In this document: piece after piece, positions 3,410 to 58,995 of the stretch
Position numbering within the stretch: position 1 is the stretch's first letter
Layout of the letters: the number at the start of each line of letters is the position of its first letter
Assembly: GCA_021802555.1 (NCBI GenBank)
Contig: JAJZRU010000012.1
Location: 1 to 64,000, forward strand
Length of the DNA stretch: 64,000 nt
Direction: 5' to 3'
From: Pseudomonadota bacterium
GTDB lineage: Bacteria > Pseudomonadota > Gammaproteobacteria > Burkholderiales > Thiobacillaceae
Notes under the pieces: generated by a model
What the model was told of the DNA's origin: nothing
Seen by the model: only the letters and a program-made list of their open reading frames with translations
Database searches by the model: none
Made by a program: the position numbers and the translations under genes

Positions 3410-4483
3410 ATGCTGTTCAGCAAAACGCTCCTGCGCGAACTCACCCTGACCACCGCCGCAACGCTGACCGTGCTGGTGGCCATTGCGCTGGTGACGCTGT
3501 TCGTGCGCCTGCTGGGCAGCGCTGCCGAAGGCGACATGGCCAACGAGGCAGTCACCACTTTCCTGATTTTCACGCTCATGCATTTTCTGCCGGTGCTGCT
3601 CTCGGTGGCGGTGTTCGTCGGCGTGCTGATGAGCCTGTCGCGCATGTGGCGCGACCATGAAATGGTGATCTGGATGAATCTGGGCCAGGGGCTGCTGCGC
3701 TGGATCCCGCCGGTGCTGGGCCTGGCGCTGCCCATCGCCGTGCTTACGGCGCTGCTCACTTCGCTGGTCATTCCTTGGGCCAACAGCAAGAAGGACGAGT
3801 ATCGCCATGAGCTGCAAAGCCGCAACGACGTCTCCGCGCTGGTGCCGGGCGTGTTCGCGGAAACGCGCGACGGCACGCGGGTGTTCTACGTGGAAGGGCT
3901 TAATCCGCTGACCGACACGATCAAGCATGTTTTCCTGCAGACCCAGGACAAGGGCAAGATAGGCATCATCGTGGCAAGTTCCGGCCGGCGCGAGCAGAAG
4001 CCCGGCGGCACGCGCTACCTCGTGCTCAAGAACGGACGGCGCTATGAGGGTGTGCCCGGCCAGGCGCAGTACAACATCGCCAGCTTCCGCCACTACGCCA
4101 TGCGCATAGACCCCTTGCCGCCCCAGCCGCGCGCCGATTCCGCCAACAACGCCTACCTCGGCCAACTGCTGCGTTCCGATCGCCCCGACTATCTGGGCGA
4201 GCTGAGCTGGCGCATCGGCCTGCCTTTGAGCACGCTGGTGCTTGCGCTCCTGGCCATCCCCCTGAGCTTCGTCAATCCGCGCGCGCGCCGCTCCTACGGG
4301 CTGCTCATGGCAGGGCTGCTGTTCTTCATCTACAACAACCTCATGTCGGTCGCGCAGGTCTGGATAGAACAGGGGCGCGTGCCGCCCTGGATCGGCATCA
4401 TGCTGCCGCACCTGATCATGCTGGGGGCGGCGGCCTGGCTGTTCTACTACCGCACCCGGCTCAGGTCGGCGCCGCGCCCGTGA
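3410..4483 (+). CDS. lptF: LPS export ABC transporter permease LptF
   Basis: Inner-membrane permease that works with LptG and the LptB ATPase to extract LPS and push it across the periplasm. It is 357 residues, with two groups of three hydrophobic membrane segments (about residues 10-120 and 265-350) flanking a large periplasmic beta-jellyroll domain, the LptF/G fold. The stop overlaps the GTG start of lptG by four bases. It diverges from pepA, the common proteobacterial arrangement. Confidence 0.95.
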   Translation: MLFSKTLLRELTLTTAATLTVLVAIALVTLFVRLLGSAAEGDMANEAVTTFLIFTLMHFLPVLLSVAVFVGVLMSLSRMWRDHEMVIWMNLGQGLLRWIPPVLGLALPIAVLTALLTSLVIPWANSKKDEYRHELQSRNDVSALVPGVFAETRDGTRVFYVEGLNPLTDTIKHVFLQTQDKGKIGIIVASSGRREQKPGGTRYLVLKNGRRYEGVPGQAQYNIASFRHYAMRIDPLPPQPRADSANNAYLGQLLRSDRPDYLGELSWRIGLPLSTLVLALLAIPLSFVNPRARRSYGLLMAGLLFFIYNNLMSVAQVWIEQGRVPPWIGIMLPHLIMLGAAAWLFYYRTRLRSAPRP

Positions 4484-51336: not shown

Positions 51337-51744
51337 TCACCCCTCCCGCAAGGCATCGATGAGCGGGCATGACACCCGGCCGCCGCGGCTGCCGCATTCG
51401 CGCACCAGGCGGGACAGCACCCGCTCCATGCGTCTGAGGTTGGCCTGCCGGGCGCGGACATCGGCCAGGCGCAGGGCGGCGAGTGCGGCGGCTTCCCGGC
51501 AATGGGTGCCGTCTTCCAACTTCAGCAGCTCGATGATTTCGTCCAGGCTGAAGCCCAGGCGCTGGGCCGATTTCACGAATCTCAGCCGCGCCACGTCGGC
51601 CTCGCCGTAGCGGCGGATGCCGCCCAGGGGCCGCTCCGGTTCCGCCAACAGGCCGCGGCGCTGGTAGAACCGTATGGTCTCGACATTGACCCCGGCGGCC
51701 TTGGCGAAGGCGCCGATGGTGAGCTGCTCTGATGGGTTCGCCAT
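51337..51744 (-). CDS. merR: Mercury-responsive regulator MerR
   Basis: Represses and, with Hg(II), activates the divergent mer promoter by DNA twisting. It is 135 residues. An N-terminal winged helix ([24 protein letters not shown]) precedes a long dimer helix; the Hg ligands C82, C117 and C126 are all present at classical positions. The gene diverges from merT with the operator between. Confidence 0.96.
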
Positions 51745-51749
51745 TGTGC

Positions 51750-51780
51750 TTGACTCCGTACAGAGCTACGGGATTACAGT
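51750..51780 (+). promoter_or_regulatory. mer operator/promoter (19-bp spacer)
   Basis: -35 TTGACT (51750-51755) and -10 TACAGT (51775-51780) are 19 bases apart, the over-long spacer typical of MerR-controlled promoters. The dyad CCGTA-CAGAGC-TACGG (51756-51771) lies in the spacer where MerR binds. Confidence 0.88.
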
Positions 51781-51814
51781 GACTGTACCAAGCACGGGAT
51801 GGAAAGGAAACCGC

Positions 51815-52162
51815 ATGCCGCAATCGCACGCCAAAGGCGCCCTTTTCGCCGGGGGGCTGGCCGCCATCCTCGCTTCCAGCTGTTGCCTGGGGCCGCTGAT
51901 CCTGCTGTCGCTGGGCGTCAGCGGTGCGTGGATCGGCAACCTGACCCGGCTGGAACCCTACCGGCCCTACTTCATCGGGGCCGCCCTGCTTGCCCTGTTC
52001 TTTGCCTACCGCCGCGTGTTCAGGCCGGCATCGGCCTGCAAGTCCGGCGAAGTGTGCGCCGTGCCCCGCGTCAACCGGACCTACAAGATGCTGTTCTGGA
52101 TCGTCGCCGCGCTGATCGTCGTGGCCCTGTCTTTCCCTTATGTTGCGCCCTTGTTCTATTGA
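51815..52162 (+). CDS. merT: Mercuric transport protein MerT
   Basis: Inner-membrane Hg(II) importer passing mercury from MerP to MerA. It is 115 residues with three hydrophobic helices. The first helix carries C23-C24 (SSCCLGP), and the cytoplasmic loop carries C75 and C81. The start is the ATG (MPQSHAKGALFAGG) preceded by GGAAAGGAAA. Confidence 0.95.
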   Translation: MPQSHAKGALFAGGLAAILASSCCLGPLILLSLGVSGAWIGNLTRLEPYRPYFIGAALLALFFAYRRVFRPASACKSGEVCAVPRVNRTYKMLFWIVAALIVVALSFPYVAPLFY

Positions 52163-52173
52163 AAGGAACCCCC

Positions 52174-52452
52174 ATGAAAAAGCTCCTCCTTTCCGTCGCC
52201 ATCACTGCCGCCGTCGCCGGTCCGGTCTGGGCCGCCGAGCAGACCATCACTCTGGCCGTGCCAAGCATGACCTGTTCAGTTTGCCCGATCACGGTCAAGG
52301 ACGCCCTATCCAAAGTCCCCGGCGTCGAGAAGATCGATGTCAGCCTGGCAAAAAAAGACGCCGTGGTGACCTTCGACAATGCAAAAACCAATACCCAGGC
52401 GCTGATCAAGGCCACGACGGACGCGGGCTATCCGTCCAGCGTCGAGCAATGA
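52174..52452 (+). CDS. merP: Periplasmic mercury-binding protein MerP
   Basis: 92 residues: a signal peptide of about 20 residues ending VWA, then a heavy-metal-associated domain with C34xxC37 (SMTCSVC). Hands Hg(II) to MerT. It follows merT after 11 bases and has GAAAGGAA as ribosome site. Confidence 0.95.
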   Translation: MKKLLLSVAITAAVAGPVWAAEQTITLAVPSMTCSVCPITVKDALSKVPGVEKIDVSLAKKDAVVTFDNAKTNTQALIKATTDAGYPSSVEQ

Positions 52453-54156
<1,704 letters not shown>

Positions 54157-54220
54157 GGCCGTCGGCGCGCGGGTGTTGCAAACGCATCCGCATCAATGGG
54201 GCCATGCGTGCCGGAACTGC

Positions 54221-54248
54221 TTGATTTCCAGAATCCGCCTTATATAAT
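54221..54248 (+). promoter_or_regulatory. Sigma-70 promoter of the NRAMP-like operon
   Basis: TTGATT (54221-54226) and a perfect TATAAT (54243-54248) are 16 bases apart. A start near 54255 would give a 5' leader of about 235 bases. Confidence 0.65.
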
Positions 54249-54285
54249 TCGGCTCCTCTCGACTTGGGCCTGGCCCTCATCAACC

Positions 54286-54489
54286 ATGGGTAGTAACTGT
54301 TGTCGTTTATGCGGTAACGCCTGAAGGCCCCTGACAGCAGCTCCCATCGTCGCTGCCGCCAACCCTCAGGCTGGCGGCGGTGCCCGGACCCTCCCGGTCC
54401 GCACCTCCTCACTCTTAGTCATTCGATCGCCATGCGCGGCGAGCGCCGTGCATGTGCGGTGTTGAATCTCTCGCACGAGAGGAGGCGGC
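54286..54489 (+). promoter_or_regulatory. Long structured 5' leader, candidate metal riboswitch with anti-Shine-Dalgarno
   Basis: Five stem-loops are visible. (A) ATGGG/CCCAT (54286-54290 with 54343-54347) encloses an eight-base stem CTGTTGTC/GACAGCAG and a GCG-GTAA-CGC tetraloop hairpin. (B) GCCGCCA/TGGCGGC (54355-54378). (C) GGTG..CGGACC/GGTCCG-CACC (54379-54405). (D) CATGCGCGGC/GCCGTGCATG (54431-54454). (E) CTCTC/GAGAG at the ribosome site. CCTCCTC at 54404-54410 is exactly complementary to the Shine-Dalgarno GAGGAGG at 54479-54485 and overlaps stem C, so the two structures compete. It does not match the yybP-ykoY or M-box consensus that I can recall. Confidence 0.6.
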
Positions 54490-54684
54490 ATGTTTGCATT
54501 CAATAAGCTTGTGGGCCGGATTTGGCTCTTGCGACGGCGTGCGGCAGCGCGCCCCCCGGTCATCGCGCCTGCCGGCGGCGCTATGCGTTCCACCTATGCC
54601 GACGTGCGGCTGGTGTCTGTCGGCCTCGCCCCGATGGGCGGCCCGGCCGACCGCGACGATGTCAGGCGAGGAGGCCGCCCATGA
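54490..54684 (+). CDS. Small protein or leader peptide coupled to the NRAMP-like gene
   Basis: 64 residues (MFAFNKLVGRIWLLRRRAAA...), basic N-terminal half, Pro/Gly-containing middle, charged end (PADRDDVRRGGRP). The ribosome site GAGAGGAGG, four bases before the ATG, is the strongest in the region, and the stop overlaps the transporter ATG (ATGA). Translation of this frame therefore probably controls the transporter. No family is recognised. Confidence 0.6.
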   Translation: MFAFNKLVGRIWLLRRRAAARPPVIAPAGGAMRSTYADVRLVSVGLAPMGGPADRDDVRRGGRP

Positions 54685-56063
54685 ACACCGAAGCCCGCAC
54701 CCTGGATGCCCGTCTGTGTCCGGAATGCCCGCCGCTGCCGGAGGGCATCGAGCACCGCCTGCGCGACCGCCTGCACCTGGACGCGCTGCGCCGCGGCGCG
54801 CGCGACTGGCGCGGCCGGCTGGCCCTGGGGCTCGCGCTGATCGGCCCCGGCGTGCTGGTCATGCTGGGCGACAACGACGCCGGCGGCATCATCACCTATG
54901 CGCAAACCGGGGCGACCTACGGGCTGGGCCTCTTTCTGCCCCTGATGATCGTGCTGGGTGTCGTGGCCTATGTGGTGCAGGAAATGACCGTGCGCCTGGG
55001 CGCTGTCACCCGGCGCGGCCACGCCGAACTGATCTGGAAGCGCTACGGCGCCTTCTGGGGCTGGTTCTCCCTGATCGACCTGGTGGTCGCCAACGTGCTC
55101 ACCCTCATGACCGAATTCATCGGCATCCGCCTGGGCGGGCAGGCGCTGGGCCTGTCGCCCTGGCTGACCGTGCCGGTGTCGCTGGCCTTCGTGGCCTATG
55201 TGCTGGTATTCCTGCGCTATTGGACTTGGGAGCGCATTTCCTTGTTCATCGCCGTATTCAACCTGATCTTCGTGCCTCTGGCCATGCTCTCCCATCCGGA
55301 CTGGCACGCCGTGGCGCGGGCTTTCGTCGGGCAGGGCTGGGCGGTGCCGGGCGGCTTGCTGTCGCTGACCTTCCTGATTCTGATCTCGGCCAACATCGGC
55401 ACCACCATCGCGCCCTGGCAGTTGTTCTTCCAACAATCCTGCATCGTCGACAAGGGGCTCTTGCCGGGCGACATCCGGGCCGGGCGGCGCGACCTCATAA
55501 TAGGCGTGATCGGCATGGTGCTGGTGGCCATGGCCGTGATCGTCCTGGCCGCCAAGACGCTCAAGGGTGTGCCCGACGCGCAGGGTCTGGATGCGGGCAC
55601 GGTGCTGGCGGCCCTGCGCGCCGAACTGGGCGAGGGCATGATGGCCTTGTTTGCCCTGGGGCTGATGGAAGCCGGCCTCATCGCGTCCATCGTCGTCACC
55701 GCCAGCAGCGCGTGGGCCATCGGCGAGGCCTTCGATATCGACCGCTCCATCAACGCCCCGCCGCGCCAGGCATTGGGTTTTTATCTGCCGGCCATCCTGG
55801 GCACGGCGCTGGCAGCCATGGTGGTCATGATCCCCGGCCTCAACCTGGGCTTCCTCAACTTGAGCGTGCAGATCATCGCCACAGTCTTCATGCCGGCGGC
55901 CATGCTGTTCCTGCTCATGCTGCTCAACGACCGGGAGCTGATGGGCCATCACGTCAACTCGCCCGCCCGCAACGCCGTGTCCATCGCCATCATGGCCGGC
56001 CTGATCCTGTGCAACAGCCTATATGGCATTGCCACGTTGTTTCCCCATGCCCTGGGAGGGTGA
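54681..56063 (+). CDS. NRAMP-related divalent metal transporter (non-canonical metal site)
   Basis: 460 residues, about eleven hydrophobic helices in the NRAMP order. The helix 1 metal motif, DPGN in canonical Mn/Fe transporters, is DAGG here (GDNDAGGIITYAQ), and the helix 6 MPH motif is APW (TTIAPWQLFF). Loss of the Met sulfur ligand is a known trait of NRAMP-related Mg transporters, so Mg(II) is at least as likely as Mn(II); this is inference. The helix 8 text LFALGLMEAGLIASIV is otherwise family-like. It is coupled upstream to a 64-residue frame and downstream to a 65-residue membrane protein. Confidence 0.85.
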   Translation: MNTEARTLDARLCPECPPLPEGIEHRLRDRLHLDALRRGARDWRGRLALGLALIGPGVLVMLGDNDAGGIITYAQTGATYGLGLFLPLMIVLGVVAYVVQEMTVRLGAVTRRGHAELIWKRYGAFWGWFSLIDLVVANVLTLMTEFIGIRLGGQALGLSPWLTVPVSLAFVAYVLVFLRYWTWERISLFIAVFNLIFVPLAMLSHPDWHAVARAFVGQGWAVPGGLLSLTFLILISANIGTTIAPWQLFFQQSCIVDKGLLPGDIRAGRRDLIIGVIGMVLVAMAVIVLAAKTLKGVPDAQGLDAGTVLAALRAELGEGMMALFALGLMEAGLIASIVVTASSAWAIGEAFDIDRSINAPPRQALGFYLPAILGTALAAMVVMIPGLNLGFLNLSVQIIATVFMPAAMLFLLMLLNDRELMGHHVNSPARNAVSIAIMAGLILCNSLYGIATLFPHALGG

Positions 56064-56066
56064 GCC

Positions 56067-56264
56067 ATGAAACAGCTGAAAGACTTCGATCCCGCCGCCA
56101 TCCGCCGCTTGATCGAGCGGGAGGGCTGGCATCAGCCCCTGCCCGAAGTTCGGCCAGTCGCGCTTACCCCCGGTCAGCGGGCCTTGTTCTGGGGCCTGCG
56201 CGCTTACGTGCTGATCATGTCGGCGGTCGTGGTGTGGGCCTTCGTGCATGGGGCGCAGGGGTAG
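56067..56264 (+). CDS. Small single-span membrane protein, partner of the NRAMP-like transporter?
   Basis: 65 residues. A soluble N-terminal part (LKDFDPAAIRRLIEREGW) is followed by one membrane helix at about 43-60 (LRAYVLIMSAVVVWAF). It starts three bases after the transporter stop, with GGAGGGTGAGCC as ribosome site. Its placement suggests an accessory subunit; the function is unknown. Confidence 0.65.
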   Translation: MKQLKDFDPAAIRRLIEREGWHQPLPEVRPVALTPGQRALFWGLRAYVLIMSAVVVWAFVHGAQG

Positions 56265-56372
56265 TCTGTTGCCGCAACGCTTCCTCTCGCAGCCCTGCCC
56301 GGGGAGGAGTACGGCCGTTTAATAACCCAATTGTCATGGCCCCGACCCAGAATCGGGGTATGGAGACACGTG

Positions 56373-57734
56373 GTGAGAACAACAATATCTCAAACAGTCC
56401 TGGCACTGTTTCATCTGTCGATCAATCGCCTGCGACAGGTTCTTGGCGTGTGCGCGGCGTTGCTCTGCGCTCCTGCCGCGGCTGCGCTAGGGCCATCTCT
56501 GACGCTGGGTATGCAAAGCACATACATTTATCAGTACCAGCCCCGATTCGAGGTTCCCTATTCGGGACCCAACAGCCTTGCGCCCGGCCCGTCCCACGGC
56601 TACACCTTCAGCGCGACCGCCATGCTGGCCAGCCGGCCCTGGACGGGCGGCGAGTTCTATCTCGAGCCCGAGGCGGTCTCTTCCATTCCCATCTCCAACC
56701 TCACGGGGCTGGGGGGTCTCACCAACGGCGAGAACCAGAAGGGGGGCGGGGTCAGCCCCGAATATTACGTGGCGAGATTCTTTCTGCGTCAGACTTGGAA
56801 TCTTGGAGGGAAGCCGGTCGAACAGGAGGCCAGCCTTACCCAGCTTCCCACCACGGTCGACAGCAGGCGCGTGGTACTGACGGTAGGCAAATATGCCGTC
56901 ACTGACATCTTCGATACCAGCAACTACAGCGGGGACCCCCGCAATACCTTCCTCAATTGGTCGTTTTTGACCTATGGCGCCTGGGACTACGCCGCCGATG
57001 TGCGCGGCTATACCTGGGGGGCGACGCTCAGCTGTCACGATAACGACTGGACTTGGCGCGTGGGGCGCTTTCTGGAGCCGGCGGTGCCCAACGGGCCTAC
57101 CCTGGACACGCGAATCATGCAGAACCATGGCGACCAGATCGAAATCGAGCATGACCACGACCTGGCGGGCAGGCCGGGCTTCGTGAAGCTGCTGCTGTAC
57201 CGCAACGTGGCCGCTATGGGCAGCTATGCCCAGGCCGTGGAGCGGGCCTTGCAGGCCGGCGGCACGCCGAATCTTGCAAGCACGCGCAGGCAGCGCGCCA
57301 AGCTGGGAATCGGCCTGCACGTCGAGCAGCAGATCAGCCCCGCGCTCGGCCTGTTTGCGCGTGTGTCGAAAAATGATGGCGGCGAGGAAGAGAACGCCTT
57401 TACCGAAATCGACGAGCAGGCGCAAGCGGGCCTGGCTCTGAACGGCAGCGCCTGGCATCGTCCGGACGATACCTGGGGTTTGGCGTATGCCATCAACAGC
57501 CTGTCCGCCGCGCACCGCACCTATCTTGCCGCCGGCGGCTTGGGAAATTTCCTGGGCGACGGAAAACTTGATTACCGTCCCGAGCAGGTGTGGGAGAGCT
57601 ATTACCGCTATCAGGTCAGCCATGACTGGTCGCTATCGGCCGATGCTCAGGTCATTGCGAACCCGGGATACAACGCCGCGCGTTCCGGACCGGTAGGCTT
57701 TTTTGCGGTCCGGCTGCACTATCAAAGCTTCTGA
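56373..57734 (+). CDS. OprB-like outer-membrane porin
   Basis: About 453 residues: a signal peptide (VLGVCAALLCAPAAA), then beta-barrel text with alternating aromatic residues, ending in a C-terminal Phe (RLHYQSF), the usual BAM signal. Features such as QSTYIYQYQPRF, EFYLEPEAVS, FLNWSFLTYGAWDY and the WESYYRYQ C-terminal strands fit the carbohydrate-selective porin OprB family. The substrate is unknown. The start is uncertain: GTG at 56373 (or 56370), eight bases after GGAG. Confidence 0.8.
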   Translation: MRTTISQTVLALFHLSINRLRQVLGVCAALLCAPAAAALGPSLTLGMQSTYIYQYQPRFEVPYSGPNSLAPGPSHGYTFSATAMLASRPWTGGEFYLEPEAVSSIPISNLTGLGGLTNGENQKGGGVSPEYYVARFFLRQTWNLGGKPVEQEASLTQLPTTVDSRRVVLTVGKYAVTDIFDTSNYSGDPRNTFLNWSFLTYGAWDYAADVRGYTWGATLSCHDNDWTWRVGRFLEPAVPNGPTLDTRIMQNHGDQIEIEHDHDLAGRPGFVKLLLYRNVAAMGSYAQAVERALQAGGTPNLASTRRQRAKLGIGLHVEQQISPALGLFARVSKNDGGEEENAFTEIDEQAQAGLALNGSAWHRPDDTWGLAYAINSLSAAHRTYLAAGGLGNFLGDGKLDYRPEQVWESYYRYQVSHDWSLSADAQVIANPGYNAARSGPVGFFAVRLHYQSF

Positions 57735-57797
57735 AAAGATTTGGCCCGGAACGAGTTGGGCTAGAATGGCGCGCTCGTTCCACGATAGTCCCCAAAG

Positions 57798-58367
57798 ATG
57801 TCAGAAGGCGGTTTCCACGTCCATGGCGCGCACGATCACGCGGTCGAGCATGCGGCCCATCATGGCCCGGGGCTGGCGCAGTGGGTGGCCATCTTCACCG
57901 CCATCCTCTCCACCCTGGGAGCCGTAGTCGCCTATCAGGGCGGCAACACGCAGAACGAGGCCATGCTCTACAAGAACGAAGCCGTGCTGAAGAAGACGCT
58001 GGCTTCGGATCAGTGGAATTTCTACCAGGCCTTGAGCACCAAGCAGCACTTGATGGAGCTGGCGCGCGACATTCTCGCAGGCAAGAACCAGGCGTACTAC
58101 GCGGCGAAAATCGCCAAGTACCAAAATCAGAAAGTGGCCATCAAGGCCCAGGCCGAGGCTCTGGAGGCCGCATCGTCCAAGGCCAATGCGGAAAGCGCCC
58201 GCCTGCTGCGCCCGCACCACCGGCTGGCGCAGGCGCTCACTCTGATTCAAGTGGCCATCTCGCTCGCTTCCATCACCGTGCTCACGCGCAAGCGCTGGCT
58301 GTTCGCCCTGGCCGGCATTGCCGCGGCCGGCGGCATAGTGCTGTGGGTGAATGCTCTGCTGTTGTAG
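57798..58367 (+). CDS. DUF4337 membrane protein
   Basis: 189 residues. A His-rich N-terminus (HVHGAHDHAVEHAAHH) precedes a membrane helix at about 27-46; a helical middle (KQHLMELARDILAGKN ... KAQAEALEAASSKAN) may form a coiled coil; two helices close the protein (about 147-162 and 168-187). This is the DUF4337 layout; the function is unknown. The N-terminal histidines could bind metal, of interest beside metal genes. The PAP2 gene follows after seven bases. Confidence 0.82.
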   Translation: MSEGGFHVHGAHDHAVEHAAHHGPGLAQWVAIFTAILSTLGAVVAYQGGNTQNEAMLYKNEAVLKKTLASDQWNFYQALSTKQHLMELARDILAGKNQAYYAAKIAKYQNQKVAIKAQAEALEAASSKANAESARLLRPHHRLAQALTLIQVAISLASITVLTRKRWLFALAGIAAAGGIVLWVNALLL

Positions 58368-58374
58368 AGGCCGC

Positions 58375-58995
58375 GTGCTCAAGGCCGTGCTCTATGATTG
58401 GGGAGGCACCAATGCCGCGCTGTTCCACTGGGTCAACCGGCTGCACTCGCCGTTTTGGGATCGCCTCATGCTGTGGGGCACCGCGCTGGGCGATCATCGC
58501 AACTTTCCGGTCTATGCGGCGCTGCTGACGCTCGCCGGGCTGGTGCTCGCGGCGCGCGCGGGCAGGCGGGCGGCGGAGGATATTTCCCGCGCGCTTGCCC
58601 TGAGCTGGCTGGGTGCGCTGGCCGTGCTGGGCCTGGGATATGTGGTAGACGGCGGCTTGATCCTGTGGCTCAAGCCCTGGCTCGATTACCCGCGCCCCTT
58701 GCTGGCTCTGCCGCCGGGTTCGGTCACCGTGGTGGGCCGGCCGGAATATCACTACAGCCTGCCGAGCGGGCACTCGGCTTTTGCCATGCTCTTGGCGGCG
58801 AGCATGTGGCCTGTGCTCAACCGCTGCTGGCGCACGGCGGCGGCGATCTTCGTCCTCTGGGTGGGGGTTTCGCGCGTCAGCGTGGGGGCGCATTTCCCCG
58901 CCGACGTGGCGGCGGGCTGGCTGCTGAGCCTGGGCGTGGTGGCGCTGGTGCGCCCCGCCGTGGCCTGGCTTGCCGCACGCGCCGGCGGCAAATGA
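58375..58995 (+). CDS. PAP2-family phosphatase
   Basis: A membrane phosphatase of about 206 residues for lipid phosphates (undecaprenyl diphosphate or phosphatidic acid class). The three catalytic motifs are clear: K(x6)RP in KPWLDYPRP, PSGHS, and SR(x5)H(x3)D in SRVSVGAHFPADV. About six hydrophobic helices. I use the GTG start with GAGG upstream; an ATG-started frame from 58351 overlaps the DUF4337 gene. Confidence 0.9.
   Translation: MLKAVLYDWGGTNAALFHWVNRLHSPFWDRLMLWGTALGDHRNFPVYAALLTLAGLVLAARAGRRAAEDISRALALSWLGALAVLGLGYVVDGGLILWLKPWLDYPRPLLALPPGSVTVVGRPEYHYSLPSGHSAFAMLLAASMWPVLNRCWRTAAAIFVLWVGVSRVSVGAHFPADVAAGWLLSLGVVALVRPAVAWLAARAGGK

Follow-up and report, generated by a model that had tools for sequence, protein, structure and literature searches.

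Which element controls the NRAMP-related transporter gene in the 64,000-nucleotide (nt) stretch of Thiobacillaceae DNA analysed here (contig JAJZRU010000012.1, positions 1 to 64,000; the window), and what signal does it read? The gene lies behind a long leader that a preliminary description, made from the sequence alone, had taken for a translational riboswitch, possibly of a new aptamer class, that senses a divalent metal. A structured, probably regulatory leader before the transporter is borne out by our analysis and control by Mg2+ appears likely. Our reading, to which we give a probability of about 0.58, is that the leader acts through a leader peptide as a Mg2+-responsive attenuator of a magnesium importer of the NRMT type, similar to mgtL and mgtQ, and not as a new aptamer. 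A family of upstream open reading frames (uORFs) precedes the same kind of Mg2+-uptake gene, which suggests that the ribosomes making the peptide help to sense magnesium. The argument draws on the following features:

54221-54248, plus strand: sigma-70-type promoter, TTGATT-16-TATAAT (one found, against a mean of 0.0 in shuffles).
54286-54324, plus strand: uORF, ATG GGT AGT AAC TGT TGT CGT TTA TGC GGT AAC GCC TGA, encoding MGSNCCRLCGNA*, the proposed leader peptide (sequence, counterparts in homologues).
54286-54347, plus strand: hairpin A, a composite of P1, internal loop and P2 with the uORF codons as 5' arm (minimum free energy (MFE) fold; consensus of the window and locus L014).
54352-54381, plus strand: hairpin B (MFE fold; consensus including L045, L046 and L050).
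54385-54401, plus strand: hairpin C (two of six pairs changed on both sides relative to L014).
54404-54410, plus strand: anti-Shine-Dalgarno (anti-SD) CCTCCTC (sequence, MFE fold).
54429-54457, plus strand: hairpin D, between anti-SD and SD (window/L014 consensus).
54467-54482, plus strand: hairpin E (TCTCTCGCACGAGAGG), overlapping the SD and alternative to the anti-SD pairing (window/L014 consensus).
54479-54485, plus strand: Shine-Dalgarno (SD) GAGGAGG of the 64-residue ORF (sequence).
54490-54684, plus strand: 64-residue ORF, the first after the SD (unmatched in Pfam and NCBIfam at E <= 0.001).
54681-56063, plus strand: predicted NRMT-type NRAMP-related Mg2+ transporter, 460 amino acids (Pfam Nramp, 205.9 bits).

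The uORF of the window has 12 codons. Its ATG lies ∼38 nt after the -10 box of the promoter, which had been picked out before (TTGATT / TATAAT) and is confirmed by the pattern count, and hairpin A starts exactly at this ATG. The leader had been given about 235 untranslated bases: the length holds, the word 'untranslated' probably does not, as the stretch contains an ORF of 12 codons that has counterparts in homologues. The closest relative is L014, whose transporter is 91% identical to that of the window. There we found a similar promoter (TTGACT-16-TATAAT), and the uORF start and first codons are retained (peptide MGSYCCHPLK). The string GGGTAGTAAC, previously read as the core of an aptamer, is composed of the last base of the ATG and codons 2-4 of the uORF.

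In a FastTree phylogeny of 77 transporters, rooted at the midpoint, a clade of 62 members has support 1.0. The tree comprises 71 of 80 loci together with the window, L014, L015, L041, L042 and L043; the 80 loci are the best 80 of 538 candidate relatives of the transporter, and L062, L102, L111, L112 and L120-L124 were left out. We recognised a uORF in 55 of the 62 clade members, from Proteobacteria, Bacillota, a delta-like lineage and Thermoplasmata; this count takes in L100, for which the start codon is uncertain, and three loci from Rhodanobacter, of which two are near-identical. The peptides fall into groups: MDCDPSRSSLSA in L045, L046 and L050, MDSCPSRSCSK in L047, MGSS(S/C)(D/H)T in L054-L058 and L065, and, with a TTG start, MDSSC or MGSS(C/R) in L048 and five others. 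The Acidithiobacillus caldus plasmid L043 encodes MDSDPSCFHK. Alphaproteobacterial uORFs begin M(K/N/S/R/Q)PRS..., those of the delta-like loci L072, L074, L077, L078 and L083 read MRSEPDSS, several from Bacillota contain (S/T/A)DPGG, and the Thermoplasmata uORFs carry DKPPSS (L090) or DEPPSS (L095). All five clade loci fetched later (68-74% identity) likewise have a uORF, with the peptides MDSSCSHIRYA, MNDCCSRPPFR..., MNDCCSRPPPR..., MGSSSHTAKA and MGSSRPSLLR.... The first of these, L147, shows CGCCTGAGGGCC at the place of the window's CGCCTGAAGGCC; the fourth, L150, belongs to a group already seen. A peptide family before magnesium-uptake genes in many bacteria and some archaea is apparently undescribed.

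We compared the uORFs within groups by a column-permutation test, which asks whether nucleotide differences spare the amino acids. Eleven group tests were made, the TTG-MDSS group entering at two lengths, and five gave p < 0.05: DPGG 0.0010, delta-like 0.0030, alphaproteobacterial 0.0072, MDCDP 0.024 and MGSSS 0.046. Across the first 8 codons of the delta-like group all four variable columns are third positions. DPGG occurs at most 8 codons from the start in 5 of 13 Bacillota leaders, compared to 0.0175 expected from mononucleotide shuffles.

The strongest sign that the uORFs are coding is their use of the serine codon AGU (AGT in DNA). For the GC-rich leaders (42 of 51 loci; L072, L073, L074, L077, L078, L079, L083, L090 and L095 were set apart) we detected AGT in frame among codons 2-14 in 40 cases, whereas the two remaining frames gave 3 and 1. 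Among serine codons AGT reaches 50% in the uORFs (136 codons) and 4% in the transporter genes belonging to these loci (702 codons); CGA, ACA, CCT and TGT are also over-used. Across all loci in-frame AGT occurs in 49 of 51 against 7.5 expected from the serine counts, where related loci are not independent. It exceeds expectation in each of five groups: alphaproteobacteria 10/10, Bacillota 11/13, delta-like 5/5, archaea 2/2 and beta/gamma-like 21/21, the starts of this last group having been chosen partly by AGT-containing motifs and those of the others by open frames and peptide composition. The AGU codons often follow GAC (51 loci, codons 2-16).

We further examined the composition of 59 peptides (51 curated, three from Rhodanobacter and five fetched later; L110 left out). 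Serine accounts for 26% of residues 2-14, and D, E and P together make up 21.6% of the uORF residues compared to 13.4% and 12.7% in the other frames. An acidic residue is present in 50 peptides, proline in 44, both in 42 and neither in 7. Cysteine occurs in 28. Such a bias, with the rare codons AGU and UGU, could also point to amino-acid attenuation, in which the Ser/Cys-rich uORF would sense charged tRNA-Ser or tRNA-Cys instead of Mg2+. The serine share, the cysteines and the near-universal AGU are what this explanation would predict, but the gene under control is of a family of metal importers, Mg2+ riboswitches precede its orthologues, and most of the peptides carry D/E (50/59) and P (44/59) as well. 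We consider it very unlikely.

Mg2+ is the likely signal because of the transporter type and of what precedes its orthologues. The NRMT signature is DxxG in helix 1 and TxxA/T in helix 6 (PMC8806188, as far as its accessible text goes), and the window protein carries DxxG-TxxA as DAGG at residues 66-69 and TTIA at 241-244; the pattern as searched matches 67 of 77 relatives and misses 10. The closest solved structure is EleNRMT 7qia with 169.7 bits, compared to 51.0 for the best MntH, and the MntH model PRK00701 scored 87.5 bits, below its cut-off of 430. The transporter was thus rightly called NRAMP-related, and signature and structure match assign it to the NRMT type. The M-box riboswitch RF00380 precedes the transporter gene in 8 of 12 relatives scanned. 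In a set of 15 genomes we found one M-box each in 11 (11/13 Bacillota, 0/2 delta-like), just before the transporter locus, and all 11 precede both the uORF and the transporter gene; M-boxes before NrmT genes are known from the available part of PMC4072509. The M-boxes before orthologues indicate indirectly that the window protein may transport Mg2+, and Mg2+ as the likely signal narrows the divalent-metal sensing suggested earlier.

Some observations on these loci stand apart. In the Bacillota metagenome-assembled genome of L096 a selenocysteine tRNA (4248-4338, minus strand, 59.3 bits) lies just upstream of the M-box. On pACRY04 of Acidiphilium cryptum (L041:6234-7267), typed conjugative, a small hypothetical gene and one of the MgtC/SapB family, a further link to magnesium, come after the transporter gene, and a Tn3-family transposase is nearby. 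The genome of the window has two further NRAMP-family genes, G000:C35:7985-9178 (38% identity) and G000:C29:74319-75527 (29%), and no similar uORF was noticed before the former (leader L009).

We next consider the structure of the leader. The segment 54256-54492 folds with an MFE of −106.4 kcal/mol (z = −3.66), and the L014 leader reaches z = −5.01; in both cases 0 of 200 shuffles were as good. The consensus of the two contains 63 predicted pairs, 6 of them changed on both sides (compensatory). Both the fold scores and these changes indicate more structure than expected by chance. The composite hairpin 54286-54347 and hairpins B and C, described before, are indeed present in the sequence and in the MFE fold. 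At the SD the consensus shows hairpin E and not the anti-SD helix.

An alternative reading of these results is a new class of translational riboswitch that binds a ligand, with hairpin A as aptamer, a metal as ligand, the anti-SD/SD pair as expression platform and the short ORF incidental. Strong structure, the compensatory changes and the position before a Mg2+-type transporter agree with this, and no known class fits: the covariance models of Rfam 15 gave 0 matches at gathering in the whole 64 kb, and nothing relevant appeared at E <= 10 in 54000-56400, neither yybP-ykoY nor M-box. The Rfam comparison proposed in the preliminary description therefore left the leader outside the known classes, as considered possible there. 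Across five relatives only a fluoride riboswitch was reported; it lies elsewhere in L014 (3549-3607, minus strand, 44.1 bits, cut-off 34), ∼1.2 kb downstream of the transporter gene. However, the putative core consists of codons of an ORF family with synonymous variation in several groups and a frame-specific AGU bias. An RNAalifold consensus of five leaders retained hairpin B and did not recover hairpin A, where the alignment is poor. Only L014 is close enough for an aptamer comparison, and an exact match to the seed ATGGGTAGTNACTGTTGTC is present in 2 of 399 genomes of the order, namely those of the window and of L014, which leaves little material in favour of an aptamer. Allowing up to 3 mismatches at least 156 of the 399 genomes match, but a reversed control also matches often and we draw nothing from this count. 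A new aptamer class thus seems unlikely, and the proposed core is better explained as part of a short ORF whose homologues vary as codons. The same applies to the suggested resemblance to yybP-ykoY. That element is a Mn2+ riboswitch of metal transporter leaders with a superficially similar GGG-AGUA string, and here this string is codons.

The pairing of CCTCCTC with GAGGAGG had been proposed as the switch. Their complementarity is evident in the sequence and in the MFE fold; pairing beyond chance was not obtained in single-sequence tests of the window. SD exposure and duplex formation were tested for 50 of the 51 uORF loci (L084 has no settled downstream start). The mean unpaired probability of the SD was 0.20 compared to 0.27 for shuffles, with 33 of 50 loci lower (Wilcoxon p = 0.008), a weakly positive result. 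In Bacillota L076, L085 and L096 the SD pairing beats all 300 shuffles. The SD hairpin is also supported in 10 leaders from alphaproteobacteria, some of which are near-identical: 75 of 80 cells are paired, compared to 33-46 of 80 with the arm slid, 45 of 50 pair outside three anchor pairs, and both-sided changes occur at three positions. Covariation of the anti-SD therefore holds in alphaproteobacterial homologues; for the window we infer an anti-SD switch. An SD-hiding hairpin is in this way supported in the homologues (alphaproteobacteria and the three Bacillota loci), not by the single-sequence tests of the window.

Another explanation to be weighed is Rho-dependent attenuation. The pyrimidine-rich tract at ∼54404-54427 would then be a Rho site rather than an anti-SD, and translation of the uORF would gate Rho. 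The leaders of mgtA and corA act in this way according to the available text of PMC11552253 and PMC11282234, and the SD pairing of the window does not exceed chance. C-rich, G-poor tracts of 24 nt, by a strict definition of our own, occurred in 2 of 50 leaders, the window not among them, and the SD hairpins covary in alphaproteobacteria. We regard a Rho mechanism as rather unlikely.

For the leader-peptide attenuator we propose the following sequence of events. The uORF would be translated, and at low Mg2+ ribosomes would pause or drop off early in it, owing to the acidic, Pro- or Ser-rich starts of most members and to the rare codons AGU, CGA and ACA. The early stop would alter which downstream hairpins form, and the altered hairpins would let the 64-residue ORF and the NRMT gene be translated (or transcribed, if Rho acts as for mgtA). 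With sufficient Mg2+ the uORF would be read to its end and the downstream SD hidden. The architecture fits such a scheme: the uORF forms the 5' arm of a stem, and downstream hairpins, including SD-hiding ones, follow. For most Bacillota examined the uORF follows an M-box, so that two Mg2+ sensors may act in series. Translation of the 64-residue ORF, whose stop overlaps the transporter start (ATGA), is likely coupled to that of the transporter because of this overlap; its counterparts start alike (MFVFN in L014, MLVFKK in L045 and L050).

Several results weigh against this reading. For the window itself, no SD is evident before the uORF. Leader peptides of the mgtL, corL and mgtQ type are short ORFs in the leader of a Mg2+ transporter operon, as is the predicted ORF at 54286-54324, and have acidic or Pro residues near the N-terminus; the window peptide has no D, E or P and is among the 7 of 59 with neither acid nor proline. 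The unpaired probability of its SD is 0.17 compared to a mean of 0.18 in 30 shuffles, i.e. there is no excess hiding, the best SD duplex has p = 0.82 and the uORF stem p = 0.28, and with a modelled ribosome at any uORF codon the exposure stays at 0.17. With such a peptide and no effect of the modelled ribosome, a switch in the window may be supposed but is not directly indicated. Across the family SD pairing reached p <= 0.05 in only 8 of 50 leaders and the uORF stem in 4 of 50. Six of the 11 group tests were not significant, among them the window/L014 pair (p = 0.17). Seven of the 62 clade members have no recognisable uORF, namely the archaeal L075, L089, L093, L097, L098 and L099 and also L087. 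As many starts, chiefly beta/gamma-like ones, were picked by eye or motif, the uORF counts cannot be called blind. For 23 outgroup-type loci up to 5 kb before the gene were scanned strictly, with a motif that passes only 17 of 51 known uORFs; this gave 7 hits per strand, which equals chance. Finally, an Acidobacterium capsulatum NrmT behaves as a transporter of Mn2+ (PMC4072509, in the part consulted); its relatives fall in the outgroup of our tree.

For the 15 outgroup genes we recognised no uORF in the ∼420 nt before each. In the outgroup Rhodoferax locus L110, MDSGPSTCSPLAN occurs just after a TTGACA promoter, followed by an OprB gene and then the transporter, so that the uORF lies ∼1.72 kb before the transporter; the corresponding hit of the strict scan is well placed despite the chance-level total. 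The outgroup count is thus at least 1 of 15, L119 being doubtful; for the other outgroup genes it was the strict scan that covered the operon starts. Within the clade, Rhodanobacter L060 and L061 show the same order, with the uORF (MDIYPST...) before OprB and OprB before the transporter, and L063 has a similar uORF. L110 thus indicates that the uORF family extends beyond the clade. The peptides may there follow OprB-transporter operons.

Downstream of the transporter the window contains two further features of interest:

56067-56264, plus strand: 65-residue ORF, hydrophobic in its C-terminal part (unmatched in Pfam and NCBIfam at E <= 0.001).
56331-57734, plus strand: OprB-family porin (library match).

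The 65-residue ORF is likely the next gene of the same operon. The porin possibly belongs to the same uptake module, as OprB directly precedes the transporter, and the uORF precedes OprB, in L060, L061 and L110. The region 3' of the 65-residue ORF (56331-58995) holds the porin, a DUF4337 protein and a phosphatase-like ORF with a weak undecaprenyl-diphosphatase match. Upstream, a mercury-resistance operon occupies 51337-54156, with merR on the minus and merT, merP and merA on the plus strand; 64 nt separate its end from the leader promoter. Mercury was considered as the signal and rejected: on three plasmids the relatives have no annotated mer gene within ∼5 kb, and we therefore treat the operon as a mere neighbour. 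A similarity search with the leader DNA in plasmids and a protein search of phages and viral contigs gave no match.

A broader proposal, which we advance tentatively and hold to be possible rather than probable, is that the leader peptides of Bacteria and Archaea, with in-frame AGU beside Asp, Gly or Pro codons, form one family of ribosome-based Mg2+ sensors for NRMT importers and OprB-NRMT operons. They would act alone in Proteobacteria, Thermoplasmata and the delta-like lineage; in Bacillota they would work in series with an M-box. Ribosome-based Mg2+ sensing is familiar from the enteric mgtA, corA and mgtB. If the proposal is correct, Mg2+ sensing by the translating ribosome would not be an enteric peculiarity but a control of NRAMP-related importers that is widespread among phyla and extends to archaea. 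It would also hint at how proteobacterial NRMT genes cope without the M-box of their Bacillota orthologues, and the many natural leader variants would allow one to ask which nascent residues or codons make ribosomes sensitive to Mg2+. The recurring AGU codon is a specific and readily testable clue.

Among the literature matches listed we recognised nothing on an NRMT leader peptide, on a leader peptide combined with an M-box, or on NRAMP leaders of acidophiles; as subscription papers were mostly outside the scope, this is weak evidence of absence. The known systems are compared here as far as the accessible parts of the respective papers describe them. For mgtL, mgtQ and corL, poor translation of the uORF at low Mg2+ is accompanied by refolding of the leader and by more transporter (PMC8092293, PMC11552253, PMC11282234), and for mgtL and mgtQ acidic or Pro residues are held responsible (PMC8092293, PMC11552253). 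In mgtQ of the Salmonella mgtCBRU operon (PMC8092293) the ORF is very short, contains acidic codons and overlaps alternative stem-loops; one of these stem-loops hides the ribosome-binding site (RBS) of a Mg2+ transporter gene. The window shares with it a very short leader ORF near alternative stem-loops before a Mg2+ transporter, and may share the RBS switch. However, mgtQ is situated between two genes, and the transporter that it serves is a P-type ATPase, whereas the NRMT uORF lies near the 5' end of its operon and is rich in Ser and AGU, and the window peptide has no acidic residues. With mgtL and corL (PMC11552253, PMC11282234) the family has in common a uORF within a stem of the 5' leader of a Mg2+ transporter and, in most of its peptides but not in the window's, destabilising acidic or Pro residues near the N-terminus (EPDP in MgtL). 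These two serve other transporter families and use Rho termination, and the text available mentions no AGU-serine signature.

The M-box before NrmT genes (PMC4072509) concerns the same transporter family, and the Bacillota orthologues studied here have M-boxes likewise. The available part of that paper describes a riboswitch and mentions no uORF, and according to Rfam no M-box is present in the 64 kb of the window. A parallel to the tandem is mycobacterial pe20 (PMC12810186), where an M-box is followed by uORF1 and uORF2 with anti-SD control; uORF1 has rare codons and lowers reporter expression. There the M-box precedes a PE/PPE operon, uORF2 is specific to mycobacteria and uORF1 is poorly conserved. 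In plan the predicted NRMT leader peptides resemble the enteric Mg2+ leader peptides; what sets them apart is the family of the transporter, their phylogenetic spread, the signature of Ser and AGU, and the M-box tandem.

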